Part shown: piece by piece, positions 8,821-52,713 of the stretch
Numbering within the stretch: position 1 is the stretch's first letter
Layout of the letters: the number at the start of each line of letters is the position of its first letter
NCBI GenBank assembly: GCA_020851235.1
Contig: JADZDD010000001.1
Span: 1-54,618, forward strand
Length of the DNA stretch: 54,618 nt
Origin: Burkholderiales bacterium
GTDB lineage: Bacteria; Pseudomonadota; Gammaproteobacteria; Burkholderiales; Casimicrobiaceae
Reading direction: 5' to 3'
Made by a program: the position numbers and the translations under genes
Notes under the pieces: generated by a model
The model's input: the letters and a program-made list of their open reading frames with translations, nothing else
Databases searched by the model: none
Told to the model about the DNA's origin: nothing

Positions 8821-8839
8821 AGTCGACCCTGACACGATC

Positions 8840-10003: not shown

Positions 10004-10015
10004 AGGAGGCGCTCC

Positions 10016-11194: not shown

Positions 11195-11207
11195 GCGCCG
11201 TCACCTC

Positions 11208-12587: not shown

Positions 12588-12603
12588 CAGCGCAGGCGCA
12601 GAC

Positions 12604-34614: not shown

Positions 34615-35293
34615 CGCGATCGCCACCGCCGCCGGGGCCGCGCCCGTCATCGCCATCGACGGCCCCGCGGCGTCGGGCAAGGGCACCGTGGCCGCACGCG
34701 TCGCGGACGCGCTCGGTTTTCACCTCCTCGACAGCGGCGCCTTGTATCGGCTGGTGGCGCTCAAGGCGCTGGGCGCGGGTGTGCCATTCGACGATGCGTC
34801 ACGTCTGGGCGAGCTTGCCACGGCGCTCGATGTCAGCTTTGGTCCGACGGGCGTGACGCTCGAGGGCAACGACGTCACGCAGGCGATCCGGGGCGAGGCC
34901 GTTGCCGAAGGCGCTTCGCGGGTCGCCGTCCATCCGGCCGTGCGTCGGGCGCTCCTCGATCGCCAGCGTGCCTTCCGGGCGCCGCCAGGACTCGTCGCGG
35001 ACGGCCGCGACATGGGGACCGTCGTCTTTCCGGAGGCGGGCACCAAGATCTTCATCACGGCGACGCCCGAGGCGCGCGCCGAGCGGCGGCGCTTGCAGTA
35101 CGCCGAACGCGGCGTCGTCGCCGACGTCGCGGCACTCCTCGCCGAGATCCGCGCCCGCGACGCGCGCGACAGCGCGCGTGCCGTGGCGCCATTGGTGCCG
35201 GCCCGCGATGCGGCGATCCTCGACACGACCGACCTCAAGGTCGATGCCGCCGTCGATTTCGTGCTGCAGCGCTACGCGCAGCGCGCCGCCTGA
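34601..35293 (+). CDS. cmk: Cytidylate kinase
   Basis: 230 aa. P-loop [20 protein letters not shown] at about residues 17-36, then [17 protein letters not shown], the CMP-binding [20 protein letters not shown], and the lid region [18 protein letters not shown]. It phosphorylates CMP and dCMP. AroA-cmk overlap is the standard betaproteobacterial order, but rpsA, which normally follows, lies 17.4 kb further on. It converges with the enamidase-like gene 67 bp away; no T-tailed terminator hairpin is seen between them. Confidence 0.96.
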
Positions 35294-35360: not shown

Positions 35361-36560
35361 TCAATGCCCCGCGGAAACGACGACCGGAATCTCGGTCGCC
35401 GGCGGCGTGTTCCGGCTGCGGCCACAGCGCACGACGCCGTCGATCATCACCATGCCGACCCCGGGGAGGTCGCCCAGGCCGACACTGTCGAGAAGCGTGC
35501 GGCCCGCGCTGTGCTGCGCGCGATCCATGAACACGAAATCGGCGGCGCGGCCGACCTCGATCAAGCCGCAGTCGAGGTTGCGCATGCGTGCGGTGTTGCC
35601 GGTCGCGAAGCAGAACACGAGTTCGGCGGGCACGCCCGCGACGCCGGCGAGGAAGGCGATCATGCGCAGGATGCCGAGCGGTTGCACGCCCGAGCCTGCC
35701 GGCCCGTCGGTGCCGAGGATCACGCGATGCGGACATTTCAGTTCGATCGCCGCTTTCGCTGCCGCGACGGCGATGCGCTCGTTGCCGTTGTGCACGATCT
35801 CGATCGCACGCGCGCTGCGCTCGCACAATTCGCAGACGTGCTTTTCGGGAAGCGCGGTGTGGCCGCCGTTGATGTGCCCAATGACGTCGGCGTCGGCTTC
35901 CAGCACCACGTCCTTGTCGATGAGCCCCGAGCCTGGAATCGACGGGCCGCCGGTGTGGATCGTGCTCTGGATGCCGTGCTTGCGCGCCCAGGCGACCATC
36001 GCTTTCGCCTCCGTCCCGCCCTTCACCGATCCCAGACCGACTTCACCCAGGAGCTTGACCCCCGCCTTCGCGAGGTCGGCGAAGTCGTCTTCGGTCATGC
36101 CCTTCTCGATGACGGGTGCGCCGGCGAGCACCTTGACGCCACCCGGGCGGAAGTTGTCGAACGCACGCTGCGCGGTGATGGCGAGCGCCTTGAGTCCCAC
36201 GATGTCCTTGGGGCGACCCGGCAGGTGCACCTCGCCCGCCGAGATCATCGTCGTCACGCCGCCATGCAGCGTCGAGTCGATCCAGCCCAACTGCCCTTGC
36301 CGCGGCGTCCAGTCGCCGAAGACCGGGTGGACGTGACTGTCGATGAGCCCCGGTGCGAGCGTGGTTCCGCGCGCATCGACGACAAGATCGGGATCGGTGA
36401 CGTCGCAATCGCTGGCACGCCCGACGGCGGCGATCCGGCCGTCGCGCACGACGAGCGTGTCGGCATCGAGAATCGGCCGGTCGATATCGCCGGAGAGCAG
36501 GAGCCCGACGTTGCGGATCACGACCTTGCCGGATGCCGCACCTGCTGCCGCTTCTGCCAT
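35361..36560 (-). CDS. ena: Enamidase-like amidohydrolase (6-oxo-1,4,5,6-tetrahydronicotinate hydrolase)
   Basis: 399 aa cytosolic amidohydrolase. It shows the whole pattern of Eubacterium barkeri enamidase: HxH at His76/His78 in LAPGLIDSHVHP, LHGGVTTMISAGEVHLPGRP at about 98-117, the bridging-type glutamate Glu173 in GEVGLGSVKGG, His202 in IHTGGPSIPGSG, His229 in GHINGGHTALP, Asp285 in LGTDGPAGSGVQPLGILRM, and the tail SRNTPPA. The known enzyme is a bifunctional Fe-Zn protein. It opens 1,4,5,6-tetrahydro-6-oxonicotinate to ammonia and 2-formylglutarate. The gene is convergent with cmk and has its own operator 40 bp upstream (36600-36615). Imidazolonepropionase or dihydroorotase-type enzymes lack these blocks. 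Substrate inferred from the family and from the Hnr homologue nearby. Confidence 0.85.
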   Translation of the reverse strand: MAEAAAGAASGKVVIRNVGLLLSGDIDRPILDADTLVVRDGRIAAVGRASDCDVTDPDLVVDARGTTLAPGLIDSHVHPVFGDWTPRQGQLGWIDSTLHGGVTTMISAGEVHLPGRPKDIVGLKALAITAQRAFDNFRPGGVKVLAGAPVIEKGMTEDDFADLAKAGVKLLGEVGLGSVKGGTEAKAMVAWARKHGIQSTIHTGGPSIPGSGLIDKDVVLEADADVIGHINGGHTALPEKHVCELCERSARAIEIVHNGNERIAVAAAKAAIELKCPHRVILGTDGPAGSGVQPLGILRMIAFLAGVAGVPAELVFCFATGNTARMRNLDCGLIEVGRAADFVFMDRAQHSAGRTLLDSVGLGDLPGVGMVMIDGVVRCGRSRNTPPATEIPVVVSAGH

Positions 36561-36599
36561 CGTCGCTCTCCGTGGTTGCCGGCGCGGTGCGCCGTTTCA

Positions 36600-36615
36600 T
36601 GTAGCAAATGCTAAA
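36600..36615. promoter_or_regulatory. Cluster operator site 1, upstream of the enamidase gene
   Basis: TGTAGCAAATGCTAAA, matching the 16-bp dyad TGTAG-N6-CTACA seen at the other promoters of this cluster (one mismatch in the right arm). Read on the minus strand it contains TGCTACATG, a possible extended -10 (TG-C-TACATG) for the enamidase gene, so a bound repressor would cover the promoter. Confidence 0.6.
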
Positions 36616-36675
36616 CCCCGCGTCGGGTGCGCGGCAAGCGTCGCACCCGGTCGGCGCGGCGTGGCCGGTCGCGGA

Positions 36676-37413
36676 TCACCGGGCCGGCAGCGTATCGGGT
36701 GGCAGCAATGCGCGACGGACGGTGTCGACGATGAAGGCCTCCCAGTGCGCGAGCGCCGCGGGCGAGTCGGTGCGCTCGCCCAGGAACGCCGAGAGCGTAT
36801 GCCGGTTGCCGAGGTAGAAGTAACCCATCGCCGCGACCATGAGGTAGATGTCGCGCGCGCTCACCGTGCTGCGGAAAAGGCCGCGCGCCGCCCCGCGCGC
36901 GAGCGCGTCGCGCAACAGGCGCATGGCCGAAGGCGAGAAGGCGCTGGCGCGTGGTGACTTGGCGATGTGCCGGCCGCGATGCAGATTCTCGTCGTTGAGC
37001 AGGGCAATGAACTCGGGATGACGGCGGTAGTAGTTCCACATGAAGCGCGCCGCGACTGCCACCGCCTCGTCCGGCGGTTCGACGTCGAGCGGCAGCTTCG
37101 ACTCGGCTTCGTTGAACCGGCGGTACTGCTCCTCGAGCACGGCGACGTAGAGCCCCTCCTTGCTGCCGAAGTAGTAGTAGATCATGCGATCGAACGAGCG
37201 CGACGCCTTGGAGATCGCATCGACGCGCGCACCGTCGAAGCCGCGCCTGGCGAAGATCCGGGTTGCGGCGCGCAGGATCGTTTCGCGCGTTGCCTGCGCG
37301 GCGGCGGCACGCGTGCCGCGGATGGGGCCCGATGTCGATCGGCGCGGCACCGGACGCTTCGGCGCGCGACTCAAGGATCGAGTCCGGGGAGCTTGTTCTT
37401 GACGTCCTTCCAT
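36676..37413 (-). CDS. TetR-family regulator (RutR/NicS-like)
   Basis: About 245 aa from the ATG at 37413, which overlaps the ferredoxin gene by 43 bp; a TTG at 37374, fused to the ferredoxin stop (TTGA), is an equally good start and gives about 232 aa. Helix-turn-helix: [20 protein letters not shown], then [20 protein letters not shown] and [20 protein letters not shown]. The C-terminal domain ([20 protein letters not shown]) is the RutR-like type that senses pyrimidines and related heterocycles. In Pseudomonas putida the TetR protein NicS controls the nicotinate hydroxylase genes nicAB, so this one is a candidate to bind the TGTAG dyads. The first 30 residues are basic and not conserved in appearance. 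Confidence 0.82.
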
Positions 37414-37694
37414 TGCTCGGCGTCGGGCAGCGGCTCGTGCGCCTTGATCAGCACCGGCCATTCCCGCGCGAGCCGCGCGTTGATCTCCAGGAACGCGGCT
37501 TCCTCCGCTGGCATGTCGGCTTCGGCGTAGATGGCGTTGACGGGGCACTCCGGCACGCACACCGCGCAATCGATGCACTCGTCCGGGTCGATGACGAGGA
37601 ACAACGGCCCTTCGTGGAAGCAGTCGACGGGGCAGACTTCGACGCAATCGGTGTACTTGCAGCGGATGCATGCATCGGTCACGACATGGGTCAT
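37371..37694 (-). CDS. fdxA: 7Fe ferredoxin ([3Fe-4S][4Fe-4S], FdI type)
   Basis: 107 aa; the ATG at 37694 has AAGGAG 8 bp upstream. Cysteine spacing equals Azotobacter FdI shifted by one: Cys9, Cys17 and Cys50 for [3Fe-4S]; Cys21, Cys40, Cys43 and Cys46 for [4Fe-4S]; extra Cys12 and Cys25. Core sequence [20 protein letters not shown] and [20 protein letters not shown]. It is a soluble low-potential electron carrier. Transcribed divergently from the hnr homologue, which in E. barkeri takes electrons from reduced ferredoxin. A partner Fpr-type reductase is encoded at 45929-46702. The adjacent TetR gene overlaps its 3' end. Confidence 0.93.
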
Positions 37695-37755
37695 TGCAAA
37701 CTCCTTCGCCCGGTTGCGCCAGTGCGGTGGATGCGCTACGCTAGACGCGCCGCCA

Positions 37756-37771
37756 TGTAGTGAACGCAACA
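37756..37771. promoter_or_regulatory. Cluster operator site 2a in the ferredoxin-hnr divergent region
   Basis: TGTAGTGAACGCAACA, a 16-bp copy of the TGTAG-N6-CTACA dyad with one mismatch in the right arm. It lies 62 bp upstream of the ferredoxin ATG, where a minus-strand promoter is expected. Confidence 0.5.
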
Positions 37772-37781
37772 CATTTCATTA

Positions 37782-37794
37782 TGTAGTTGCTACA
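37782..37794. promoter_or_regulatory. Cluster operator site 2b and candidate hnr promoter
   Basis: TGTAGTTGCTACA has perfect TGTAG/CTACA arms but a 3-bp spacer instead of 6. On the plus strand TTGCTACACG forms an extended -10 (TG-C-TACACG) for hnr with AACACA 17 bp upstream as a fair -35. The leader would be about 60 nt. Confidence 0.5.
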
Positions 37795-37862
37795 CGAATT
37801 TACCGCAGACGCCAGGGGCGTGCAATCCCGGGCGGGGCGACTCCTCCGAGGAGGCCTTCGCG

Positions 37863-39452: not shown

Positions 39453-39465
39453 GGGCGCTGCCGCG

Positions 39466-40383
39466 ATGCCCGCCGCGCGTGCACGTCTGCCGGACGGGCG
39501 GTGGCACTTCCACCACGGTCCGATCGACATCGTCATCGGCGCGGACGGCGATGCGGCGAGTGTCGCCGCCGCGCACGAAGCGGCGTGGCAGCGCTTCGCC
39601 ACCGTTCTCGACGAGCTCGTCTGCGAGTTGCCGCGCTTGCGCGAGCCCGTCGGCGCGACGTGCCCGCTCACCGGGACCGTCGCCCGGCGCATGTGGCACG
39701 CCTGCGCGCCGTTTCGCGCTTGCTACATCACGCCGATGGCGGCGGTCGCCGGGTCGGTCGCGCAGGAACTCGTCGCGGCGTACGCCCGTGACGGGGTGCG
39801 CCGGGCGTGGGTGAACAACGGTGGCGACATCGCGCTCCACCTCGCACCGGGGAGCGCGGTTTCGGTGGGCGTGTACGCCGATCTCGCACGCTTCGTGCCG
39901 GCAGCGGCGAGGCAGCCGCTTGCCACCGACGCCGACTTTCGCATCGACGCCGACTCGCCGGTGCGCGGCATCGCGACCTCCGGCTGGCGGGGTCGCAGCT
40001 TCTCGCTGGGGATCGCCGACGCCGTGACGGTCCTCGCCGCCACCGCGGCACAGGCCGACGCTGCCGCAACGATGATTGCCAATGCCGTCGACGTGGCCGA
40101 TGCGCGGATCGTGCGTCGCCCCGCCGTCGAGTTGCGCGACGACAGCGATCTGCGCGACATTCCCGTCACCGTCGAAGTGCCGCCGTTGGGCGAGGCGGCG
40201 GTGCGCGTGGCGCTGGCCGCGGGTGTCGCACGGGCGCGCGAGATTCGCGCCGCCGGCGCGTGTCACGATGCCGTCCTGGTCTGCCAGGGCTGGGTCGCAG
40301 CGATCCGCGGCGCGCCACGCCGGCTCGCATCGCACATGCGCGCCGCATCGCCAGCCCCGGACGCCGTTGCCGTCCACGCCTGA
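39466..40383 (+). CDS. UPF0280 (ApbE-like) family protein
   Basis: 305 aa, ATG 39466, 13 bp after hnr. It matches the UPF0280/COG2122 family, distant relatives of the flavin transferase ApbE. ApbE-type elements are visible: RRAWVNNGGDIALHL at about residues 112-126 (NxGGD), GIATSGWRGRSFSLGIADAV at 168-187, and the Ala-Asp-rich metal/FAD end AAQADAAATMIANAVD at about 194-209. Function is not established for the family. Because the E. barkeri Hnr has a covalently bound flavin, a role as a dedicated flavin transferase for the neighbouring Hnr is an attractive inference. No signal peptide, so it would act in the cytosol, unlike most ApbE proteins. Confidence 0.75.
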   Translation: MPAARARLPDGRWHFHHGPIDIVIGADGDAASVAAAHEAAWQRFATVLDELVCELPRLREPVGATCPLTGTVARRMWHACAPFRACYITPMAAVAGSVAQELVAAYARDGVRRAWVNNGGDIALHLAPGSAVSVGVYADLARFVPAAARQPLATDADFRIDADSPVRGIATSGWRGRSFSLGIADAVTVLAATAAQADAAATMIANAVDVADARIVRRPAVELRDDSDLRDIPVTVEVPPLGEAAVRVALAAGVARAREIRAAGACHDAVLVCQGWVAAIRGAPRRLASHMRAASPAPDAVAVHA

Positions 40384-40396
40384 AGGAGCGAAACCG

Positions 40397-41038
40397 ATGC
40401 TCGAAGTCCGTCGCATCCTCATTCGCGTCGAGGACATCCACCACGAGTTCGGACCGGTCGCAGCGACGCCGCAGCGGCGGGGCACGGTGGCGGTCGTCAT
40501 CACCAATCCGTTCGCGGGTCGCTACGAGCCCGAGATCCTGCCGTTCATGGACGCCTTGAATCCCTTGGGCCTCGATCTGGCGCAGCGATTGCAGGCGGCC
40601 ATGCGCGTGCCGGTCACCTCGATCGAGAGTTACGGCAAGGGTGCGATCGTCGGCGCCGGCGGGGAGATCGAGCACGGTGCGCTGTGGCACGTCCCCGGCG
40701 GTTACGCGATGCGCGAACTGCTGGGCTGGAAGGGCGATCGCGATGCCTATCGCAAGGGGGGAGTGCAGACCACGACCGGGCAGCCGGGGAACGCGCTCGC
40801 GATCGTGCCTTCGACCAAGAAGGTGGGGCCGCCGGGCGCCACCCTCGACGTTCCGCTCACGCACATCAACGCGAGCTACGTGCGCAGCCACTTCGATGCC
40901 ATCGAGGTGCGCGTTCCCGGTGCACCGCGCGCCGACGAGATCGTCTACGTGCTCGCCATGAGCACGGGGGCGCGGGTGCACGCGCGTGTCGGCGGGCTCG
41001 CGGCGTCGGCCATCGCGAAATGGGACGGCCTGCGCTGA
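40397..41038 (+). CDS. 'Amino acid synthesis' family protein (PF06684/DUF1185), copy 1
   Basis: 213 aa; ATG 40397 with GAAGGAG 8 bp upstream. Family blocks: RRGTVAVVITNPFAGRYEPE, SIESYGKGAIVGAGGEIEHG, AIVPSTKKVGPPGATLDVPL, NASYVRSHFDAIEVRVPGAP and the closing RVGGLAASAIAKWDGLR. It shares all of these with the next gene but has an extra segment (about residues 96-118, VPGGYAMRELLGWKGDRDAY) missing in the sister. No biochemical role is known to me for this family. The position between Hnr/UPF0280 and the NicAB-like hydroxylase suggests a step or chaperone function in the heterocycle pathway. Probably soluble. Confidence 0.78.
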   Translation: MLEVRRILIRVEDIHHEFGPVAATPQRRGTVAVVITNPFAGRYEPEILPFMDALNPLGLDLAQRLQAAMRVPVTSIESYGKGAIVGAGGEIEHGALWHVPGGYAMRELLGWKGDRDAYRKGGVQTTTGQPGNALAIVPSTKKVGPPGATLDVPLTHINASYVRSHFDAIEVRVPGAPRADEIVYVLAMSTGARVHARVGGLAASAIAKWDGLR

Positions 41039-41068
41039 CTCGCGCCGGCACCGATTGGGGAGACGAAG

Positions 41069-41653
41069 ATGCAAGCGAAGATCCGCAAGCTCGTGGTCGA
41101 GATCGAAGAGACACGCATCGAGATGGGGCAGCCGGTGGTGCCGCCCACCCGCCGTGCGCTCGCGATGGCGGTGATCGACAATCCCTGTGCGGGCCGTTAC
41201 GTGGAGAACCTCGACGTGCTGACGGCGATCGGCGAGGAACTCGGAGGCCTGCTCGGGACGAAGTGTGTCGAGGCGCTGGGAATCGCGCCGGGTGCCGCGC
41301 AAAGCTACGGCAAGGCGGCGATCGTCGGCGAGGCCGGGGAGCTCGAGCACGCGGCGGCAATCCTGCACCCCAAGCTCGGCGCGCCGCTACGCAAGGCGGT
41401 CGAAAAGGGCGCCGCTCTCGTGCCGTCGGCAAAGAAGCGGGGGGGCTTGGGCACCGCGATCGACGTGCCGCTCGGACACAAGGATGCGGCGTTCGTGCGC
41501 AGCCATTTCGACGCGATGGAGGCGCGCGTGCCCGATGCGCCGCGGGCCAACGAGATCGTCGTCGCCGTCGTCGTCACCGACAGCGGGCGACCCTTGCCCC
41601 GCATCGGGGGCCTCAAGGCGAGCGAGATCAAGGGTGAGGACGGCCTGCGCTGA
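41069..41653 (+). CDS. 'Amino acid synthesis' family protein (PF06684/DUF1185), copy 2
   Basis: 194 aa; ATG 41069 with GGGGAG upstream, 30 bp after copy 1. Shared blocks: RRALAMAVIDNPCAGRYVEN, SYGKAAIVGEAGELEHAA, VPSAKKRGGLGTAIDVPL, VRSHFDAMEARVPDAPRANE and IGGLKASEIKGEDGLR. The two genes look like an old tandem duplication that has diverged, and a heteromeric complex is plausible. Nothing in the sequence shows a catalytic motif that I can name. Followed 7 bp later by the [2Fe-2S] subunit gene. Confidence 0.78.
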   Translation: MQAKIRKLVVEIEETRIEMGQPVVPPTRRALAMAVIDNPCAGRYVENLDVLTAIGEELGGLLGTKCVEALGIAPGAAQSYGKAAIVGEAGELEHAAAILHPKLGAPLRKAVEKGAALVPSAKKRGGLGTAIDVPLGHKDAAFVRSHFDAMEARVPDAPRANEIVVAVVVTDSGRPLPRIGGLKASEIKGEDGLR

Positions 41654-41660
41654 CGCGCTC

Positions 41661-42152
41661 GTGAGCGGCACCGGCTCGCCACCGTTGCGCCTCACGGTCA
41701 ACGGACGCGACCACGACGTGGCGGCGACGCCGGGAACGGCGCTCCTCACGGTGCTGCGCAACGACCTTGGCCTCAACGGGCCGAAGTACGGCTGCGGGCT
41801 GGGCGAGTGCGGCGCGTGCACCGTGCTGGTCGACGGTGTCGCGGCACGCGCCTGCGTGATCCCCGCGGGCGGCGTCGCCGGACGCGCGATCACCACCCTC
41901 GAAGGGCTCGCGCAGGAGGGGATGTTGCATCCGGTGCAGCGTGCCTTCATCGCCGAGGAGGCCGCGCAGTGCGGTTACTGCCTCAACGGGATGATCATGA
42001 CCACCGTTGCGCTTCTTGCCCGGCGGCCGCAGCCCACCGACGCGGAGATTCGCGCCGAGTTCGCACGCAGCCTGTGCCGCTGCGGCGCGCACGTCGAGAT
42101 CCTGCGAGCGGTGCACCACGCGGCAGCGCTCGTCGCCCACGAGGCCAAGTGA
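41661..42152 (+). CDS. nicA: [2Fe-2S] subunit of a NicA-type molybdenum hydroxylase
   Basis: 163 aa; GTG start at 41661. Two [2Fe-2S] domains of the xanthine dehydrogenase family. The plant-type cluster is at about residues 42-64 (GPKYGCGLGECGACTVLVDG) with a fourth cysteine in ACVIPAG. The four-helix C-terminal cluster is in EEAAQCGYCLNGMIMTTVAL and SLCRCGAHVEILRAV. It passes electrons from molybdopterin in the large subunit. It overlaps the large-subunit gene by 4 bp (GTGA). In NicA-type enzymes there is no FAD subunit; electrons go to cytochrome c domains in the partner, as here. Symbol given by analogy with Pseudomonas nicAB. Confidence 0.85.
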   Translation: MSGTGSPPLRLTVNGRDHDVAATPGTALLTVLRNDLGLNGPKYGCGLGECGACTVLVDGVAARACVIPAGGVAGRAITTLEGLAQEGMLHPVQRAFIAEEAAQCGYCLNGMIMTTVALLARRPQPTDAEIRAEFARSLCRCGAHVEILRAVHHAAALVAHEAK

Positions 42153-45100: not shown

Positions 45101-45760
45101 CGTGGCGCGCTCGGGGCGGAGCGCGGGGGCGGGGCGTATCTCGCGGGGGCGATGGTCGAGGGCTGGGAGGCCCCGCCGCTCACCGCCGCGTCGCACGCGC
45201 CCGTGCCGTGGACCGAGGACGAGTTCTTTCGCTACCTCCGCGACGGCCACACGCGCGAGCATGGCAGCGTCGCGGGGCCGATGGCGCCCATCGTGCGCGA
45301 TCTCGCGAGCTTGCCCGAGACCGACGTGCGCGCGATCGCGACGTATCTCGCGTCGCTGCACGGACCCGCGGGTGACACCGCGGCGGTCGCCCGCTCACTC
45401 GCCCAGGCATCGCGCGGGATCGCCGTGGACAGCGAAGCGGCGCGGCTCTTCGACGGTGCCTGTGGCGCGTGCCACCACGGCGGCGACGGACCGGTGCTCG
45501 TCGGCCGCAACCTGCCGCTCGCCCACTATTCGAGCCTGCACAGCACGCGACCCGACAACCTGCTGCGGGTGATTCTCGAAGGCGTGCGCGACCCGGCCAC
45601 CGCGCAGATCGGCTTCATGCCGGCGTTTCACGACGCGCTGTCCGATCGGCAAGTGGCGCTGGTCGCCGCGTACCTGCGCGCACGCTTCGCACCCGACAAG
45701 CCCGCCTGGCCCGACCTCGAGTCCGCGGTCGCCCGGATCCGCGCGCACCCCACGCCATGA
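42149..45760 (+). CDS. nicB: Molybdopterin hydroxylase large subunit fused to three c-type haem domains (NicB type)
   Basis: 1203 aa; the GTG at 42149 overlaps the upstream stop (GTGA). Residues 1 to about 755 are the molybdenum-binding part of the xanthine dehydrogenase family (IASASIQISSVPLRLAAAQA, WPYQLHASIGPSCAVADWHG, VIRLEASGCYGRNCADDVAA, RASWLRGVSALPNSFAHESY, GEPPLGIGEASSVPGTAAIA with the catalytic-type glutamate). One transmembrane helix at about 782-802 follows. Three CxxCH haem sites then appear: CAVCH at 833, CGACH at 978 and CGACH at 1105. This architecture equals nicotinate dehydrogenase subunit B of Pseudomonas putida (about 1190 aa). It would hydroxylate nicotinate at C6 with water and deliver electrons to the respiratory chain. 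Other N-heterocycles are possible substrates. Confidence 0.85.
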   Translation: MTPPRAALPRTRDDFHAARGVLVVVRDPPPAVPPARGQPPTVPADPAEGVEILVAVWDDGSVTGLCGHVDLGTGLRTSLAQIVADELDVPFDAVAMALGDTARVPNQGPTIASASIQISSVPLRLAAAQARGWLVERAAARFAVARDALATRDGVVFVAPDPARCVSYGELVAGGHVQLELDPTTPVKPVALQRLVGQPVPRVDLPAKAAGEAVYVHDVRRPGMLHGRVVRPPYVGVDAGDFVGNSLVAVDEASIAHLPGIVAVVVIRDFVGVVAEREEVAEAAARALRVEWKPWPGVAGLADVKNALRTNPATRRVVAERGDVDAALASIAQPLTREYLWPYQLHASIGPSCAVADWHGERATVWTGSQNPHTLRADLARLVALPAPAIEVIRLEASGCYGRNCADDVAADALLLARATGRPVRVQLTREQEHLWEPKGAAQLMQVSGGLDAEGRALAYDFSTSYPSNAAPTLALLLTGTVAAQAVAFEMGDRTAVPPYAYAHLRVAAHDMAPILRASWLRGVSALPNSFAHESYIDELATAAGVDPVAFRLRHLDDPRAIELIAATTRRANWIPHTAPQGQGSDGNILKGQGFAYARYVHSRFPGFGASWTAWVADVEVDRVSGEVQVRRVVVGQDAGAIINPAGAVHQVHGNVVQTTSRALKEQVPLDARGAPEAREWGAYPILSFREVPVIEVVTMPRQGEPPLGIGEASSVPGTAAIANAIFDAIGVRLREPPFTPETVRAALGVATPAAAAPALAAPAVPTGSITPVRRRRRGAWSVAAALVAGALGMAGALLGWRPALAPVGASDPSLFTAAALSRGREVAAAGNCAVCHTAPGGVTNAGGRTMATPFGTLVTTNLTPDPDTGLGRWSYAAFARAMREGISRDGRHLYPAFPYTAFTRLSDDDLLALYAYLMAQPPVRNEVAKVDLPFPYGRPAIAIWNALFLDPGAYAPDPTRGAAWNRGAYLVEAAGHCGACHTPRGALGAERGGGAYLAGAMVEGWEAPPLTAASHAPVPWTEDEFFRYLRDGHTREHGSVAGPMAPIVRDLASLPETDVRAIATYLASLHGPAGDTAAVARSLAQASRGIAVDSEAARLFDGACGACHHGGDGPVLVGRNLPLAHYSSLHSTRPDNLLRVILEGVRDPATAQIGFMPAFHDALSDRQVALVAAYLRARFAPDKPAWPDLESAVARIRAHPTP

Positions 45761-45928
45761 ATGCCACGCTGGTGCCGGCGTAACCGCGCCGCGCGTGCGC
45801 GGTACGACGACCTGAGCCACCGCATGCCGGGCCTCACGAGCGTGACCGGTCGTGCCGCGTGGGTGGCCGACGCGCGGTAAGCGACCCCCCGGGCGGCGTT
45901 GCGCGTCGGTGGCGTGCCGTGAATCCTG

Positions 45929-46702
45929 CTATCGCTCGGCGAACGCCCGCTCGACCACGAATGCGCCGGGGGTGGTGGTGTTGCCCTCGACGAAGCCGCG
46001 CGCATCGAAGAGGGCCTTGAGGTCGCGCAGCATCGCTGCGCTGCCGCAGATCATCGCGCGGTCCTCGGCGGGATCGAGCGGCGGCAGCCCGAGGTCCGCA
46101 AAGAGCTTGCCGCTCGCGATGAGGTCGGGGATGCGGCCCGTGTAGCGATATTCCTCGCGGGTGACCGTCGGGTAGTACAGGAGCTGGCTTGCGATCATGT
46201 CGCCCAGGAACTCGTGCGACGGCAGGTGCTCGACCAGGAGGTCGTGGTACGCGAGTTCGTCGACGTTGCGCACGCCGTGCACGAGGACGATCTGGGTGAA
46301 GCGCTCGTACGTCTCCGGATCGCGCACGATGCTCATGAACGGGGCAAGCCCCGTGCCGGTGGCGAGGAGGTACAGCCGCTTGCCGGGCAGGAGGTAGTCG
46401 ACGAGCAGCGTCCCGGTCGCCTTGCGGCCGACGATGATCGTATCGCCCGGGCGGATGTGCTGCAGGCGCGAGGTCAGGGGCCCATCGTCCACCTTGATGC
46501 TCAGGAATTCGAGATGGTCCTCATAGTTGGCGCTCGCGATGCTGTACGCGCGCATGAGCGCACGCTCGTCGACCTTGAGGCCGATCATCGTGAAGTGGCC
46601 GTTGGAGAAGCGCATCGCGCCGTGACGCGTCGTCGTGAAACTGAACAGCCGCTCGGTCCAGTGATGCACCGACAGCACGCGCTCTTCGTTGAAGGCGCTC
46701 AT
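45929..46702 (-). CDS. fpr: Ferredoxin-NADP+ reductase (Fpr, Azotobacter type)
   Basis: 257 aa. FAD domain with RAYSIASANYEDHLEFLSIK (the RxYS-type motif); NADP domain with LLATGTGLAPFMSIVRDPET, IVLVHGVRNVDELAYHDLLV and AMICGSAAMLRDLKALFDA. The ending AFVVERAFAER is typical of the subclass that pairs with 7Fe ferredoxin (FPR/FdI). It moves electrons from NADPH to ferredoxin. It converges with nicB and is divergent from the ABC transporter, with operator 3 lying 122 bp upstream of the ATG. In this cluster it is the obvious electron source for ferredoxin and Hnr. A housekeeping oxidative-stress role is the alternative. Confidence 0.92.
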   Translation of the reverse strand: MSAFNEERVLSVHHWTERLFSFTTTRHGAMRFSNGHFTMIGLKVDERALMRAYSIASANYEDHLEFLSIKVDDGPLTSRLQHIRPGDTIIVGRKATGTLLVDYLLPGKRLYLLATGTGLAPFMSIVRDPETYERFTQIVLVHGVRNVDELAYHDLLVEHLPSHEFLGDMIASQLLYYPTVTREEYRYTGRIPDLIASGKLFADLGLPPLDPAEDRAMICGSAAMLRDLKALFDARGFVEGNTTTPGAFVVERAFAER

Positions 46703-47026
46703 CCGGGGATCTCGCGCGGGTCGGAAGGATCGCCGCAGGCGTTGCCGGCGGTCACGAACGAGGGGTGCAACGCAGGACTCGAAAACAGGATGCGAAGGAG
46801 CGGATCGGCGGCTGCCGATTTGATGTAGTAAATGCTACACTGCCCACCGCCGTCCGGCAATCGGGGCGGCGGCAACGAGGCGTTGCGCGCAGCGTGGCGA
46901 GGAGGTTGGGCGGCGGCGATCGGCGAGGACTGCGTCTGGTCAAGGAACCGCGCGCCGTGGCACGATGGCGAGCGCGTGAGCCTGTACCAAACCATCGTTC
47001 CACCCATCTTCCAGGGAGGCAACACC
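46703..47026. promoter_or_regulatory. Divergent fpr-ABC transporter intergenic region
   Basis: 324 bp with no supported gene. It carries operator site 3 (46824-46839) about midway. The rest is GC-rich leader for the transporter operon, ending in the ribosome-binding site AGGGAGG at 47013-47019. Confidence 0.5.
46824..46839. promoter_or_regulatory. Cluster operator site 3, between fpr and the ABC transporter
   Basis: TGTAGTAAATGCTACA, a perfect TGTAG-N6-CTACA dyad and the best copy in the window. On the plus strand it overlaps TGCTACACT (TG-C-TACACT, extended -10 at 46833-46841), so a repressor bound here would block the transporter promoter and probably the divergent fpr promoter. Confidence 0.65.
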
Positions 47027-48238
47027 ATGTCGCGATTGTCGAGCCGCATCGCCGTGCCGTTGGCCGTCGCCGTCTTGCTGGGCGCGTCGGCACTGCCGGT
47101 CGCCGCACAAGGCACGATCAAGATTGGCGAGATCAACAGCTACAAGGCGCAGCCGGCGTTCCTCGATTCGTACAAGCGGGGGATGCAGCTCGCCATCGAC
47201 GAGATCAATGCTGCCGGCGGCGTCAACGGCAAGCAGATCGAGCTCATCACCCGCGACGACAACGCCAATCCCGGTGACGCCGTGCGTCTGGCCGAGGAGC
47301 TCGTCTCGCGCGAGAAGGTCGACGTGCTCATGGGCGGCTTCCTTTCGCACATCGGCCTCGCACTCACCGACTTCGCGAAACAGAAGAAGGTCTTCTTCCT
47401 TGCGAGCGAGCCGCTGACCGACAAGATCGTCTGGCAGAACGGCAACCGCTACACGTTCCGGCTGCGCCCGTCGACGTACATGCAGGTGGCGATGCTCATT
47501 CCCGAGACGGTCAAGATGGGGAAGAAGCGCTGGGCGATCGTCTATCCCAACTACGAGTACGGACAGTCGGCGGTGGCCACGTTCAAGGCGTTGCTCAAGG
47601 CAGCGCAGCCGGACGTCGAGTTCGTCGCCGAGCAGGCGCCGCCGCTCGGCAAGGTCGATGCCGGCAGCGTCGTCCAGGCGCTGGCCGATGCGAAACCGGA
47701 CGCCATCTTCAACGTCCTCTTCGGCGCGGATCTCGCGAAGTTCGTCCGTGAGGGCAATACGCGCGGGCTGTTCAAGGGTCGCGAAGTGGTGAGCCTTCTC
47801 ACCGGCGAACCCGAGTACCTCGATCCACTGAAGGACGAGGCGCCCAACGGCTGGCTCGTGACCGGGTATCCGTGGTACGGGATCAACACGCCCGAGCACA
47901 AGGCGTTCCTCGCCGCGTATCGCAAGGCCTTCAACGACTATCCGCGCCTCGGATCGATCGTCGGCTACAGCGCGATCAAGTCGCTCGCCGCCGGCATGCA
48001 GAAGGCGAAGTCGACCGACACCGAGAAGATGATCGCGGCGTTCTCGGGACTGCAGGTGTCCACGCCGTTCGGCATGATCACGTACCGTCCCGAAGACCAT
48101 CAATCGACGATGGGCGGGTACGTGGGCAAGACGAAGAACGACGGCGGCAAGGGGGTCATGGTCGACTACCGCTACGTCGATGGCAACAAGGTATTGCCGT
48201 CGGCGGCCGAGGTGAAGAAGCTGCGCCCGGCGGACTGA
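47027..48238 (+). CDS. ABC transporter substrate-binding protein (LivJ/LivK type)
   Basis: 403 aa from the ATG at 47027, chosen for AGGGAGG upstream and the signal peptide (MSRLSSRIAVPLAVAVLLGA, cleaved after VAAQ). Periplasmic-binding fold type I: IKIGEINSYKAQPAFLDSYK, GMQLAIDEINAAGGVNGKQI, VDVLMGGFLSHIGLALTDFA, WAIVYPNYEYGQSAVATFKA and GYSAIKSLAAGMQKAKS. Members bind branched-chain amino acids, amides, aromatic acids and other small carboxylates. First gene of the transporter operon and preceded by operator 3, so the ligand is probably the pathway's heteroaromatic acid. Confidence 0.88.
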   Translation: MSRLSSRIAVPLAVAVLLGASALPVAAQGTIKIGEINSYKAQPAFLDSYKRGMQLAIDEINAAGGVNGKQIELITRDDNANPGDAVRLAEELVSREKVDVLMGGFLSHIGLALTDFAKQKKVFFLASEPLTDKIVWQNGNRYTFRLRPSTYMQVAMLIPETVKMGKKRWAIVYPNYEYGQSAVATFKALLKAAQPDVEFVAEQAPPLGKVDAGSVVQALADAKPDAIFNVLFGADLAKFVREGNTRGLFKGREVVSLLTGEPEYLDPLKDEAPNGWLVTGYPWYGINTPEHKAFLAAYRKAFNDYPRLGSIVGYSAIKSLAAGMQKAKSTDTEKMIAAFSGLQVSTPFGMITYRPEDHQSTMGGYVGKTKNDGGKGVMVDYRYVDGNKVLPSAAEVKKLRPAD

Positions 48239-48256
48239 CCGGACCTCGCGTCCCGG

Positions 48257-50155
48257 ATGGACGCCCTGGCAAGCTTCGTTGCCCAGCTCCTCAACGGGCT
48301 TGCTGGTGCATCCTCGCTCTTCCTCGTCGCGGCGGGGCTGTCGCTCATCTTCGGCGTCACGCGGATCGTCAATTTCGCGCACGGCTCGTTCTACATGCTG
48401 GGGATCTACGTCGCCTATTCGGCGGTGGCGTGGCTCGGTCGCGGCGTCGGCTACTGGCTGGGGCTTGCGCTCGCCGCGATCGCGGTCGGCATCGTCGGCG
48501 CCGTGGTCGAGATGGTCGTCTTGCGTCGCATCTACCGTGCGCCCGAGCTCTTCCAGCTCCTCGCGACGTTTGCGCTCGTGCTCATCATCAAGGACGCGGC
48601 GCTGTGGATCTGGGGCGCCGAGGAGCTGCTCGGACCGCGGGCGCCGGGTCTTGGAGGTTCGCTGCCGATTCTCGGGCGCGCGTTCCCGTCGTACGACCTC
48701 TTCCTCATCGTCATCGGCCCCACGGTGCTGGGCCTCGTCTGGCTGCTGCTGACCCGGACGCGCTTTGGCACGCTCGTGCGTGCCGCAACGCAGGACCGCG
48801 AGATGGTCGGCGCGCTCGGGGTGAACCAGGCGTGGCTCTTCACCGCCGTGTTCGCCCTCGGCGCCTTGCTCGCCGCGCTCGGTGGCGCGCTGCAGCTCCC
48901 GCGCGAACCCGCCAACCTCGAGCTCGACCTGACGACGATCGGCGCCGCATTCGTCGTCGTCGTCGTCGGTGGCATGGGGTCGCTGCCCGGGGCCTACATC
49001 GCGGCGCTTCTGATCGCGGAACTGAAGGCCATCTGCATCTGGCTCGGCGTGGTCGACGTCTTCGGCGTCACGATCTCGTTTTCCAAGCTCACGCTCGTCG
49101 TCGAGTTCCTGGTGATGGCGGTCGTCCTCGTCGTGCGCCCGTGGGGCCTGCTCGGCCGGCCGCAGGCGCCGCCGCGGGTGAGCGGGGCGGCCGAGGCACC
49201 GTTGCGACTCGGGGACAACCTCACCACGGCCGTGGCAGCGGTGCTGGTGCTCAGCCTGGTCGCGCTGCCGCCGATGACCGCGAGCCAACCCTACGTCGCG
49301 GTGCTCGCCATCGACATCCTGGTCGCGGTGCTCTTCGCGACGAGTCTTCACTTCATCATGGGACCCGGCGGCATGCATTCCTTCGGGCACGCCGCGTACT
49401 TCGGGTTGGGCGCGTACGGTGCGGCGATCCTCGTGCGCGCCGCGGGATTGCCGATGGAGGCGGCGCTCGTCCTCGGACCCTTGGTCGCCGGCATCGGTGC
49501 CGTCGTCTTCGGCTGGTTCTCGGTGCGCCTGACCGGCGTGTATCTCGCCATGCTGACGCTCGCCTTCGCGCAGATCGCCTGGGCGGTTGCCTACCAGTGG
49601 GATTCGGTCACCGGCGGCAGCAACGGCCTGACCGGCGTGTGGCCGGCAGCGTGGCTCGCCGGAACCCGGGCCTACTACTACCTCACGCTCACGCTGGTCC
49701 TCGCCGGGGCGTGGCTGCTGCGCCGCATGCTCTTCTCGCCCTTCGGCTACGCGATGCGCGCGGCGCGCGATTCGGCCCTGCGCGCCGATGCGATCGGCAT
49801 CGACGTGAAGCGCGTGCAATGGGTGGGCTTTGCCATCGCTGGCCTTTTCGCCGGCCTCGCCGGATCGCTCTTCGCCTTCTCGAAGGGCAGCATCTCGCCG
49901 GAGAGCCTGTACGTGGGCAAGTCGATCGATGCCCTCGTGATGGTGCTCCTGGGCGGCGTACAGACGCTCGCCGGCCCCGCGGTCGGGGCGAGCGTGTTCA
50001 CCTGGCTGCACGACACGGTGGCGCGCAACACCGAGTACTGGCGGGCGATGCTGGGCGCGATCATCCTCATCCTCGTGCTCCTCTTTCCGCAGGGCATCGC
50101 CGGATTCGTGCAGCAGGTGGTCGACGCGCGGCGCGACGCGAAGGGGGATCGGTGA
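48257..50155 (+). CDS. Fused branched-chain-type ABC permease (LivH-LivM)
   Basis: 632 aa, about twice the size of one permease. Residues 1 to about 295 are LivH-like (GLSLIFGVTRIVNFAHGSFY, GTLVRAATQDREMVGALGVN, VVVVVGGMGSLPGAYIAALL). Residues about 325-632 are LivM-like (MGPGGMHSFGHAAYFGLGAY, YAMRAARDSALRADAIGIDV, VMVLLGGVQTLAGPAVGASV). A short hydrophilic linker (about 295-320, GLLGRPQAPPRVSGAAEAP) joins them. It forms the whole transmembrane channel as one chain. The stop overlaps the livG-type gene (GTGA). Confidence 0.9.
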   Translation: MDALASFVAQLLNGLAGASSLFLVAAGLSLIFGVTRIVNFAHGSFYMLGIYVAYSAVAWLGRGVGYWLGLALAAIAVGIVGAVVEMVVLRRIYRAPELFQLLATFALVLIIKDAALWIWGAEELLGPRAPGLGGSLPILGRAFPSYDLFLIVIGPTVLGLVWLLLTRTRFGTLVRAATQDREMVGALGVNQAWLFTAVFALGALLAALGGALQLPREPANLELDLTTIGAAFVVVVVGGMGSLPGAYIAALLIAELKAICIWLGVVDVFGVTISFSKLTLVVEFLVMAVVLVVRPWGLLGRPQAPPRVSGAAEAPLRLGDNLTTAVAAVLVLSLVALPPMTASQPYVAVLAIDILVAVLFATSLHFIMGPGGMHSFGHAAYFGLGAYGAAILVRAAGLPMEAALVLGPLVAGIGAVVFGWFSVRLTGVYLAMLTLAFAQIAWAVAYQWDSVTGGSNGLTGVWPAAWLAGTRAYYYLTLTLVLAGAWLLRRMLFSPFGYAMRAARDSALRADAIGIDVKRVQWVGFAIAGLFAGLAGSLFAFSKGSISPESLYVGKSIDALVMVLLGGVQTLAGPAVGASVFTWLHDTVARNTEYWRAMLGAIILILVLLFPQGIAGFVQQVVDARRDAKGDR

Positions 50156-50958
50156 GCGCGCCATCGCCGCTCCTCGAGGTCAGCGGCTTGTCGAAATCGT
50201 TCGGTGGAGTGAAGGCCGTCGACGGCATCGATTTCACGCTCGCGCCAGGCGAACTCCTCGCGCTGATCGGCCCCAACGGCGCCGGGAAGTCGACGACCTT
50301 CAACATGGTCAACGGGCAACTGCGTCCGGACACGGGCTCGATCCGGCTCGAAGGGCGCCAGATGATCGGGCTCACGCCACGCGCGATCTGGCGCCACGGC
50401 GTGGGCCGCACGTTCCAGATCGCGGCGACCTTCGCCTCGCTCACCGTCGTCGAGAACGTGCAGATGGCACTCATCTCGGCTGATGCGAAGCTCTACGCGA
50501 TGTGGCGGCGGGCCCGCGACTATCGGCGCGACGATGCGCTCGAACTGCTCGAGCAGGTGGGCATGGCCGCGCAGGCCGATCGGCCGTGCAGCGTGCTCGC
50601 CTACGGCGACGTCAAGCGCGTCGAGCTCGCGATCGCGATGGCGAATCGGCCGAAGCTCCTCCTGATGGACGAGCCGACCGCCGGCATGGCGCCGAAGGAG
50701 CGCAACGACCTCATGGCGCTCACGAAGTCGCTCGTCGTCGAACGCGGCACCGCGGTGCTGTTCACCGAGCACAGCATGGACGTCGTTTTCGCGTATGCGG
50801 ATCGGATCATCGTGCTCGCCCGTGGGCGACTCATCGCGGGCGGCGCGCCGGCGGCGATTCGCGACGACCGGCGCGTGCAGGAGGTCTATTTCGGCACCGG
50901 GCGCACGTTCGAGCGGCACACCGCGACGGTCGTGCCGGCGGCCCCGGCGGCGCCATGA
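50152..50958 (+). CDS. ABC transporter ATP-binding protein (LivG type)
   Basis: 268 aa; GTG start at 50152 overlapping the permease stop. Walker A LIGPNGAGKSTTFNMVNGQL, Q-loop region GVGRTFQIAATFASLTVVEN, signature LAYGDVKRVELAIAMANRPK (a variant of LSYGEQRxLEIA), Walker B LLLMDEPTAGMAPKE, H-loop FTEHSMDVVFAYADR. The C-terminus has a 20-residue extension rich in Ala and Pro. Partner of the LivF-type protein. Confidence 0.92.
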   Translation: MSAPSPLLEVSGLSKSFGGVKAVDGIDFTLAPGELLALIGPNGAGKSTTFNMVNGQLRPDTGSIRLEGRQMIGLTPRAIWRHGVGRTFQIAATFASLTVVENVQMALISADAKLYAMWRRARDYRRDDALELLEQVGMAAQADRPCSVLAYGDVKRVELAIAMANRPKLLLMDEPTAGMAPKERNDLMALTKSLVVERGTAVLFTEHSMDVVFAYADRIIVLARGRLIAGGAPAAIRDDRRVQEVYFGTGRTFERHTATVVPAAPAAP

Positions 50959-51698
50959 GCGCGCAGCACCCCGCCGGGTCGCTCCTCGACGTGCGTGCGC
51001 TTTGCGCGTGGTACGGCGCCGCGCAGATCCTGTTCGGCGTCGAGCTCCACGTCGGGCGCGGCGAGGTCGTCGCGCTCATGGGGCGTAACGGCGCCGGCAA
51101 GTCGACGACGCTGAAGGCGCTGATGGGCATGCTCGACAAGCGCAGCGGCACGCTGTCGTTCATGGGGCGCGACATCTCGCGCAGCAGCCCGCATCAGGTC
51201 GCGCAACGGGGGCTGGGCTTCGTGCCGGAGGACCGGCGCATCTTCACCGACCTCACCGTCGAGGAGAATCTCGAGGTGGGGCGCCAACCGGCGCGCCGCT
51301 GGCCCGACGGCAGCGCCGCCCCGTCGTGGACGCCGCGGCGCCTGTACGCATTGTTCCCGAACCTGGGCGAGATGCCGACCCGTCCCGGGGGACGCATGAG
51401 CGGCGGCGAGCAGCAGATGCTCACCGTCGCCCGCACGCTCATGGGCAATCCGTATCTCGTGCTGCTCGACGAACCCTCGGAGGGAGTGGCGCCGGTGATC
51501 GTCGAGCAGATGGCGCGGATGATCGTCGAACTCAAGGGCGAAGGGGTCAGCATCCTGCTCTCGGAGCAGAACATGCACTTCGCCGAGCTCGTGTCGGACC
51601 GTGCCTACGTCCTCGAGAAGGGTCAGATCCGTTTCGCGGGCGCGATGGCCGAGCTCGCGGCCAACGACGAGGTGCGGCGCGCCTATCTGAGCGTTTGA
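50955..51698 (+). CDS. ABC transporter ATP-binding protein (LivF type)
   Basis: 247 aa; ATG 50955 overlaps the LivG-type stop (ATGA). Walker A LMGRNGAGKSTTLKALMGML, LGFVPEDRRIFTDLTVEENL, signature MSGGEQQMLTVARTLMGNPY, Walker B LVLLDEPSEGVAPVIVEQMA, H-loop LLSEQNMHFAELVSDRAYVL. With the LivG-type protein it powers uptake through the fused permease. The marR gene follows after 71 bp on the same strand. Confidence 0.92.
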   Translation: MSAQHPAGSLLDVRALCAWYGAAQILFGVELHVGRGEVVALMGRNGAGKSTTLKALMGMLDKRSGTLSFMGRDISRSSPHQVAQRGLGFVPEDRRIFTDLTVEENLEVGRQPARRWPDGSAAPSWTPRRLYALFPNLGEMPTRPGGRMSGGEQQMLTVARTLMGNPYLVLLDEPSEGVAPVIVEQMARMIVELKGEGVSILLSEQNMHFAELVSDRAYVLEKGQIRFAGAMAELAANDEVRRAYLSV

Positions 51699-51769
51699 GC
51701 ACGAGACACGGTCCAACCCGTGACGGGCCGCATCGCAAGGGCGGCGCGTCATTCCGACGGAGATCGACG

Positions 51770-52213
51770 ATGAGTCCCGCTTCGCCCGAATACCGCTTCA
51801 CCGATCAGATCGGCCACCTGCTGCGCCGGGCCTACCAGCGGCACGTCGCGATCTTCAAGGAAACGGTCCCCGACTCGCAGCTGACCGCCGCGCAATTCGT
51901 CGTGCTGTGCACGCTGCGCGACCACGGCAGCTGCCAGATCCCGCGCATCGTCGAGGCCACCGCCATCGACGAGGCGTCGGTACGCGGCATCGTCGAGCGG
52001 CTGCGCTGGCGGGGCCTTTTGACCGCGACGCACGAGCCGGGGGACGCCCGGCACACCGAGGTCGCGCTCACGCCGACCGGCCGGTCCCTCGTCCTGCAGA
52101 CCGTCCCGATCGCCGAGCAGATCTCCGAACTCACGTTCGGCGACCTCACCCCTGACGAGCGGGCCACGGTCGTCGTCCTGCTGCGCAAGCTCGCCGGCAT
52201 GGCGCCGCGCTGA
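51770..52213 (+). CDS. MarR-family transcriptional regulator (NicR-like candidate)
   Basis: 147 aa from the ATG at 51770. Winged helix: LTAAQFVVLCTLRDHGSCQI, then ATAIDEASVRGIVERLRWRG and the wing LLTATHEPGDARHTEVALTP. The dimer helices end with EQISELTFGDLTPDERATVV. In Pseudomonas and Bordetella the MarR protein NicR/BpsR represses nicotinate-degradation genes with 6-hydroxynicotinate as inducer. This gene closes the transporter operon and has no TGTAG dyad of its own upstream. Either it or the TetR protein at 36676 is expected to bind the four cluster operators. Confidence 0.82.
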   Translation: MSPASPEYRFTDQIGHLLRRAYQRHVAIFKETVPDSQLTAAQFVVLCTLRDHGSCQIPRIVEATAIDEASVRGIVERLRWRGLLTATHEPGDARHTEVALTPTGRSLVLQTVPIAEQISELTFGDLTPDERATVVVLLRKLAGMAPR

Positions 52214-52713
52214 ACGGCGGACGGACCTCGCCGGCGGCGCGAGGAGAAGTACGCCGCGGCACGCCTTGCCGCCGCCGGGGCGCCGGGGCGCCGGCGTGGC
52301 ACGACGCGGTCGGCGGCAGGCTGCCTCCGGCCGAGGGCCGACCCGGGCCGGATCGGATAAACGGTTGATCGTAAAAGGAAACTCCGCTATCATTTCAAGT
52401 CTTTTGCAGGCATTCTCCGGGGGTGACGTGGCACGATTTGCCACCCGGGACCGACCGGGCGGCCCACGCCGCCACGGCCGGGACGCAGCGGTCGTCCGCG
52501 GCGATTGACAGGCCATGGCTCGGGCGGGATCGGTTCCGCACGGCGCACCGGCCGGTCGCGTCACGTCACCCCTGCGGTCTTTTTGCAAAGGGTCGTCATC
52601 CGCTCGCTCACAGCCGGCGAACGGGTGACGCTGACATCCACCCACCCGCTGGCGGGCGAGAAAAAGGGTTCTCGACCCCGGCGGTGTTCGATTCTCTAGA
52701 GGAACCAACCCGC
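52214..52713 (+). other. Intergenic region and long leader upstream of rpsA
   Basis: 500 bp with no supported gene. The first 150 bp are extremely GC-rich with overlapping hairpins (GGGGCGCCGGGGCGCCGGCG near 52276) that may end the upstream operon, though no T-run follows. Then comes the rpsA promoter and a leader of about 310 nt with further hairpins. S1 represses its own translation through the mRNA leader in E. coli; whether this leader does so cannot be read from sequence. Confidence 0.45.
52365..52393 (+). promoter_or_regulatory. rpsA: Sigma-70 promoter of rpsA
   Basis: -35 TTGATC (52365-52370), exact 17-bp spacer, -10 TATCAT (52388-52393). It sits in the only AT-rich stretch of the intergenic region. 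Transcription would start near 52400. It makes rpsA independent of the cmk operon, from which it has been separated. Confidence 0.75.

Follow-up and report, generated by a model that had tools for sequence, protein, structure and literature searches.

The window analysed here is a stretch of 54,618 nucleotides from a Burkholderiales bacterium of the family Casimicrobiaceae (contig JADZDD010000001.1, positions 1 to 54,618). Between cmk and rpsA it carries a block of catabolic genes (35361–52213) which is a genomic island. The genes for the ferredoxin FdxA, a TetR-family regulator and an enamidase homologue (ena) are read leftward. Divergent from them, a rightward group comprises hnr, coding for a homologue of 6-hydroxynicotinate reductase (Hnr), a gene of the family UPF0280, two PF06684 genes, nicA and nicB, with spacings of 7–30 bases or a 4-base overlap. 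The fpr gene is convergent to this group and is followed by the rightward genes of an ABC importer and of a MarR-family regulator. All of these parts, including the three CxxCH sites of the NicA/NicB-type hydroxylase, had been named in an initial annotation and are present, and the betaproteobacterial host that it proposed is supported.

The pathway itself is ordinary, one of many nicotinate clusters; the link between UPF0280 and Hnr is the sharp, testable new point. UPF0280 is a candidate flavin maturase of Hnr, a role suggested by gene association, sequence motifs and a structure model, and which we believe to be new.

Hnr and UPF0280

Hnr was sought in 398 genomes of the phylum (that of the window included), which are not independent, as two genera supply many of the 32 genomes with a strong match (E 9e-107 or better); four others gave weak matches near 3e-4. 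UPF0280 (model NF003322) scores above its cut-off in the same 32 genomes and in 0 of the 366 others, and two matches below the cut-off fall in genomes without Hnr. Eight further genomes with Hnr all contain UPF0280, on another contig in one case (G088). At the 80 best loci described below, UPF0280 is directly 3' of hnr in every case (80/80), with a frame of at least 250 amino acids in 77.

The Hnr homologue has no match to a Pfam, NCBIfam or PDB family. Its assignment rests on the annotation of relatives, most of the annotated plasmid ones being named 6-hydroxynicotinate reductase, and on PMC3511419. Seven cysteines (C39, C42, C46, C56, C151, C254 and C389) are invariant in 63 aligned rows. 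The AlphaFold2 (AF2) model has a mean predicted local distance difference test (pLDDT) of 86.9 and a predicted template modelling score (pTM) of 0.85; in Foldseek searches of the PDB, 0 of 435 matches reached E 0.001 or better. We believe this lack of a solved structural match at the threshold to be a new observation.

The structure model of UPF0280 (pLDDT 92.7) has DVU1097 as its top Foldseek match (2o34, E 3e-10), followed by structures of the flavin transferase superfamily members ApbE, FmnB and Ftp at E 1.5e-4 to 3.4e-2 and probabilities of 0.87–1.00 (the strongest ApbE match has E 1.5e-4 at a probability of 1.00). Rows 1–41 are all chains of DVU1097 or of ApbE/FmnB/Ftp, and nine ApbE/FmnB rows are at E 0.001 or better. 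Profile alignment with hhalign against 20 canonical ApbE sequences, drawn from 20 loci, gave 95.2% (E 2.4e-8), and at most 1.9% for 12 controls (the Hnr profile, ten column shuffles and a reversed alignment). Against the Pfam family of ApbE (PF02424) UPF0280 scores 13.8 bits, the cut-off of 25.6 not being reached. The motifs N-x-G-G-D/E, ATSG and AD-x-x-AT align between UPF0280 and ApbE, and S172 and D198 of UPF0280 are invariant in 47 rows. In the ApbE protein of V. cholerae, Ser241, His257 and Asp285 are conserved (PMC12052999); judging from their spacing, Ser241 and Asp285 would have their counterparts in the serine of ATSG and the aspartate of AD-x-x-AT. The invariant columns of UPF0280 contain no histidine, and H14 is kept at 90% or more.

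All 39 Hnr genomes contain UPF0280, and 25 of them have a canonical ApbE that scores above the Pfam cut-off. In the remaining 14 genomes, ApbE has no match (12 genomes) or matches only inside the genome's own UPF0280 gene (two genomes). Should Hnr require a bound flavin made by this superfamily, UPF0280 is the sole candidate found in these 14. The genome from which the window comes encodes a single canonical ApbE.

A few irregular sequences were also recorded. One UPF0280 gene (G477:C28:9639-10463) has one internal TGA and one hnr (G115:C1:2969820-2971261) is split over two overlapping frames, either of which may be decay or a sequencing error. Three genomes of one genus in the same class (G193, G397 and G484) give a weak match of 32% to Hnr residues 361–442 (E ~3e-4), located in a 355-amino-acid open frame that is possibly a distant relative of the C-terminal part of Hnr.

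Distribution of the cluster and exchange of parts

Relatives of Hnr were confirmed in at least 586 stretches of species genomes, a figure compiled from two search patterns in which a single locus can count twice. The best 80 distinct loci among them, a sample that leans to close relatives, are titled Burkholderiales or its taxa (Paraburkholderia xenovorans LB400, Variovorax, Acidovorax and Polaromonas included), except for two named 'uncultured bacterium' and two unplaced betaproteobacteria. As ring opener, 66 of the 80 have an enamidase and 14 have neither enamidase nor HyuA, the marker used for the hydantoinase/oxoprolinase HyuAB. In the 49 that extend over at least 21 kb, UPF0280 and PF06684 occur in 49, enamidase in 48, the importer permease and first ATPase in 48, NicA in 47, TetR in 46, MarR in 45, NicB in 42, LivK in 37, Fpr in 32 and FdxA in 10 (E-value thresholds set by us, as for the PF06684 counts below). 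Both PF06684 queries match each other's genes, so that 49/49 reflects the family and not two copies. The initial annotation had suggested looking for the gene set in other proteobacteria; it was found in dozens of Hnr loci, a recurrence that makes the association more than chance.

Among plasmids, 26 of 72,556 records carry a relative of Hnr, and eight plasmid loci were selected by us from these. Together with the 80 GTDB loci and 39 genome loci they give 127 loci (one contig, L040 and L147, is counted twice). Within the flanks, and with bit-score thresholds set by us, 84 have an enamidase, 15 HyuA, 28 neither and none both; 'neither' can mean a ring opener beyond the fetched flank. The 15 loci with HyuA and no enamidase in the flank indicate that Hnr alone fixes neither the substrate nor the ring opener. 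The use of Hnr as a specific marker of enamidase-type nicotinate clusters is ruled out by the same count. By annotation, the amidohydrolase (enamidase) type is found on a Comamonadaceae plasmid and a Sulfitobacter plasmid, and the hydantoinase/oxoprolinase or 'acetophenone carboxylase' type in Pseudosulfitobacter, Sagittula, a Paracoccaceae bacterium, Neorhizobium, Fuscovulum and Pleomorphomonas. The hydroxylase also varies across Hnr loci: in some it is of the NicB type, in others it has a separate FAD subunit.

An Hnr tree was built from 66 sequences: 20 of the 80 GTDB loci (our choice), all eight plasmid loci and the 39 genome loci except L174, which was too short. Its rows comprise 36 with enamidase, 14 with HyuAB and 16 with neither. 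At least four changes between enamidase and HyuAB are required on this tree, against a mean of 12.1 after shuffling, and a single clade of the 14 HyuAB rows is rejected (approximately unbiased test, p_AU 6e-6). The Hnr–UPF0280 core thus appears to pair with either enamidase or HyuAB and to have switched at least four times, which we believe to be a new observation; HyuAB would be a substitute ring opener. Such an exchange on one reductase would show the rebuilding of a pathway from parts.

Some Hnr clusters lie beside an oxygenase gene. Three Roseobacter plasmid blocks (L145, L146 and L191) include the alpha subunit of an aromatic ring-hydroxylating (Rieske) dioxygenase, and an order-level relative (L153) has a 45% match near Hnr.

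A possible role for UPF0280

We propose that UPF0280 (formerly DUF375) may be a divergent cytoplasmic branch of the ApbE superfamily that has lost the catalytic histidine and acts as the dedicated installer of the covalent flavin of Hnr. The Hnr of Eubacterium barkeri reportedly holds a covalent flavin and Fe–S clusters. UPF0280 and Hnr would form a portable ring-reduction module, repeatedly combined with exchangeable hydroxylases and ring openers (enamidase or the ATP-dependent HyuAB), which would offer aerobes an oxygen-free attack on N-heteroaromatics. This proposal is tentative, with a good but not a preponderant chance of being correct. It would turn UPF0280, so far a family without function, into a testable flavin maturase, and Hnr would allow aerobes to reduce a ring with no oxygenase involved. 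A serious but rather doubtful alternative is that UPF0280 has retained the ApbE fold without transferase activity and carries flavin, or supports Hnr structurally, in a non-catalytic way. The missing ApbE histidine loop and the lack of the ApbE target motif in Hnr speak for it; against it, the serine of ATSG and the aspartate of AD-x-x-AT, which match two of the three residues conserved in ApbE, have been kept. The position of the gene inside a catabolic operon could also suggest a pathway enzyme, not a maturation factor, tied to Hnr by shared operon history only. We consider this improbable, since UPF0280 remains with Hnr while the hydroxylase, the ring opener and PF06684 vary, and since it is retained in the genome G088 though on a different contig from Hnr.

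Several observations weigh against the proposed maturase and the pathway around it. The fold match between UPF0280 and ApbE is moderate (TMq 0.31–0.49, identity 9–15%), and the H-x-x-D-P-x-T-G loop of ApbE, which holds the general base His257, falls in a gap of UPF0280. The ApbE target motif D-x-x-[ST]-G-A-[ST], as given in PMC12052999, was found in 0 of 63 Hnr rows, and S-G-A-T alone in 2 of 63. Only 10 of the 49 long loci have FdxA in the neighbourhood of Hnr, so that this electron carrier is not a constant component; 43 of the 127 loci have no enamidase within the flank. For the downstream step, the glutarate CoA-transferase model NF052585 matches 14 stretches of the genome, none above the cut-off.

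UPF0280 shares with ApbE, FmnB and Ftp the fold and the three motifs, but it differs from them by the missing histidine loop and by a proposed target without the target motif. A true ApbE was considered, and is ruled out by the Pfam score, the missing histidine and the absence of the target motif. In literature searches, which covered open-licence papers, none was found on UPF0280, none on 6-hydroxynicotinate reductase together with enamidase, and, among the matches listed, 6-hydroxynicotinate did not occur in the flavin/ApbE literature. DUF375 and UPF0280 are not mentioned in the ApbE papers PMC8238504 and PMC12052999; the word 'nicotinate' is absent from the former and 'hydroxynicotinate' from the latter.

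Predicted pathway, PF06684 proteins and genomic setting

Taken as a whole, the island is best explained by the catabolism of nicotinate or a close 3-carboxypyridine, which we regard as very probable. The features are listed in table 1.

Table 1. Features of the island and of its borders.
Feature	Position	Strand	Evidence or remark
cmk (cytidylate kinase)	34601..35293	+	PF02224 E=5e-69; left island border, outside pathway
Enamidase homologue, predicted to open tetrahydro-6-oxonicotinate	35361..36560	-	PF01979; PDB 2vun E=2.3e-108
TetR-family regulator, start codon not settled	36676..37356	-	PF17938 + PF00440
7Fe ferredoxin (FdxA), probably carries electrons to Hnr	37371..37694	-	NF045490, 165.7 vs cut-off 135 bits
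fdxA/hnr divergent intergenic region, 168 bases, likely promoter + operator	37695..37862	.	Gene order
Hnr, 6-hydroxynicotinate reductase homologue, 529 aa	37863..39452	+	Annotation of relatives, conserved cysteines, AF2 model
UPF0280, ApbE superfamily, proposed Hnr flavin maturase	39466..40383	+	NF003322, 378.9 vs cut-off 290 bits
PF06684 protein, copy 1	40397..41038	+	E=6.5e-66
PF06684 protein, copy 2 (like SPO0826, PDB 2qtp)	41069..41653	+	E=1.2e-70; 2qtp E=1e-84
NicA-type 2x[2Fe-2S] subunit, GTG start by eye	41661..42152	+	PF00111 + PF01799 in open reading frame (ORF) 41265-42152
NicB-type molybdopterin subunit, C-terminal cytochrome c part	42149..45760	+	MoCoBD_1, MoCoBD_2, Cytochrom_C; three CxxCH
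Ferredoxin-NADP reductase, Fpr-like	45929..46702	-	PF00175, PF00970; PRK10926 E=2.5e-44, below cut-off
ABC importer periplasmic binding protein	46832..48238	+	PF13458 E=2.4e-75
ABC importer fused permeases	48257..50155	+	PF02653, two stretches
ABC importer ATPase 1	50152..50958	+	PF00005 + PF12399 in enclosing ORF
ABC importer ATPase 2	50955..51698	+	PF00005 within ORF 50502-51698
MarR-family regulator	51770..52213	+	PF01047 within ORF 51326-52213; reading frame
rpsA (ribosomal protein S1), ORF as listed	52423..54453	+	PF00575, six stretches; right island border

The ABC importer, a branched-chain-type system, would take up the acid. NicAB would hydroxylate C6 and pass the electrons to its own membrane-anchored cytochrome c part, so that the hydroxylation step is proposed to feed respiration. 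NADPH, Fpr and FdxA would give low-potential electrons to Hnr, which would reduce 6-hydroxynicotinate to 1,4,5,6-tetrahydro-6-oxonicotinate, and enamidase would open the lactam by hydrolysis, yielding ammonium and 2-formylglutarate. UPF0280, whose gene immediately follows hnr, would mature Hnr by delivering or covalently attaching flavin, and the PF06684 pair would act at the unstable formyl-acid/semialdehyde stage. We infer the nicotinate substrate, the order of electron transfer, the UPF0280 reaction and the PF06684 role; the predicted enamidase and hydroxylase have clear family matches behind them. NicAB-type hydroxylation followed by reduction by Hnr and opening by enamidase, as read in the initial annotation, is the best reading of the chemistry, and among the family matches of the ORFs scanned in the block there is no oxygenase, in line with its statement that a NicC/NicX-type enzyme is missing.

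The enamidase homologue aligns ungapped over residues 11–390 with the E. barkeri enzyme (PDB 2vun), 176 of 380 aligned residues (46%) being identical, and the segments HVH, GEVGLG, HTGG, HINGG and G-x-D-x-P, which by our own reading form the metal site, are in register. None of the molybdenum hydroxylase subunits attains an NCBIfam cut-off. By eye, nicB starts with a GTG that overlaps the nicA stop. The CxxCH sites of the molybdopterin subunit are encoded at 44645, 45080 and 45461, and one hydrophobic stretch (also by eye) precedes them, an arrangement that would put the molybdenum part on the inner and the haems on the outer side of the membrane. The Fpr-like reductase scores 151 bits, below the NCBIfam equivalog cut-off of 390. 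An operator search in the fdxA/hnr intergenic region gave short overlapping palindromes at the hnr end and nothing more.

The same route has been described for E. barkeri and Azorhizobium caulinodans (PMC9304392). The cluster was reported in 2012 in A. caulinodans ORS571 (AZC_2804–AZC_2790), Bradyrhizobium japonicum, Rhodopseudomonas palustris and the Bradyrhizobiaceae strain SG-6C, with an Hnr homologue that shares 42% identity with the E. barkeri enzyme (PMC3511419). The initial annotation had suggested that the island would be a genetic version of the Azorhizobium route; the novelty of that reading is rejected on this publication, while the route itself stands. The present cluster differs from the published ones in its betaproteobacterial host and its insertion between cmk and rpsA. 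It resembles E. barkeri in its enamidase and, according to PMC3511419, in an Hnr homologous to that of E. barkeri; the E. barkeri hydroxylase, however, has four subunits, one of them a flavoprotein (PMC10331938), and uses selenium (PMC5746545), whereas that of the window carries cytochrome c. By description, not by sequence, the hydroxylase is similar to that of the Pseudomonas putida nic system, but Hnr and enamidase take the place of a ring-cleaving oxygenase step, for which no gene was seen among the scanned ORFs. The NicA/NicB-type hydroxylase of P. putida has cytochrome c sites, and the nicotinate route of E. barkeri continues by fermentation. A 2006 paper on E. barkeri reportedly described nine Proteobacteria as carrying the first three genes.

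Both PF06684 (AA_synth, DUF1185) proteins of the window pass the gathering score of 27 bits, with 221.5 and 236.9. The family occurs in 31 of the 32 genomes with strong Hnr and in 28 without, a looser tie than that of UPF0280. Across the 127 loci, some of which are cut short, 82 have two PF06684 genes, 38 have one and seven have none; five of them lack the family despite several kb after hnr (L117, L118, L152 in G088, L154 in G069 and L160 in G237). In G237 it was not found anywhere in the genome search. The residues invariant in 201 of 201 sequences include R6, N38, Y80, K82, E91, E93, H94, H100, R144, R174 and R178; the two window copies keep them, and both may therefore be active. A structure from the family dates from 2010, with the function not settled and amino-acid metabolism as a candidate (PMC2954203). 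HcdD, from 7-hydroxycoumarin degradation, belongs to PF06684 and is homologous to TgnF of trigonelline degradation, which is said to stimulate succinic semialdehyde oxidation; a like effect of HcdD was sought and not seen (PMC7913881). The window proteins resemble TgnF and HcdD in being encoded in a heterocycle catabolic operon (PMC7913881), and differ in forming a tandem pair adjoining UPF0280 and Hnr. A very near relative of copy 2 is SPO0826 (2qtp, E 1e-84), a solved structural-genomics target with a branched-chain ABC importer nearby, which may itself belong to a cluster of the Hnr/UPF0280 kind.

CO2 is reportedly lost from the ring-opened acid in the Azorhizobium route, and for this reason a role of the PF06684 pair on 2-formylglutarate or glutarate semialdehyde is proposed. 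It is a guess, more probably wrong than right, which would place the family at a stage of heterocycle breakdown. Ring opening, or hydrolysis of an enamine or lactam, by the pair is unlikely. PF06684 genes do occur near either ring opener, R6, E91, E93, H94, H100, R174 and R178 are intact in both copies, and the negative result with HcdD would agree with such an activity (PMC7913881); hydrolases for this step are, however, already present (enamidase or HyuAB), the effect ascribed to TgnF points to semialdehydes, and the five loci named above do without the family. As to the substrate, the same chemistry could serve another N-heteroaromatic acid, such as a different pyridine carboxylate or a nicotinate that bears substituents or halogens, because Hnr homologues accompany differing hydroxylases and ring openers and do not fix it; in strain SG-6C, 6-chloronicotinate joins the route after hydrolysis (PMC3511419). 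This is quite improbable for the present island, where both the enamidase and the NicB-type subunits agree with the nicotinate set; growth on nicotinate has been shown for a bacterium carrying the cluster (PMC3511419).

Hnr is carried by five of 22 genomes of the same genus (that of the window included), 0 of 38 others of the family and four of 40 others of the order. The cmk gene was detected in 19 of the 22; it is followed directly by rpsA in 13, which lack the block, and by the enamidase gene in three (the window's own genome, G003 and G019). At least three members of the genus thus carry the block as an insertion into the order aroA-cmk-rpsA. Two others, both Hnr carriers (G014 and G001), have neither rpsA nor enamidase within 1.5 kb, and one locus ends too early.

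A second catabolic-looking block, which may or may not act at the glutarate stage, lies about 22 kb from the island (3794–13413 of the window). It codes for an enoyl-CoA hydratase-like protein, a TRAP transporter, an acyl-CoA dehydrogenase, a RipC/CitE-like lyase (162.6 of 375 bits) and a CaiB-type CoA-transferase, for which the best family is succinate-glutarate CoA-transferase (283 of 750 bits).

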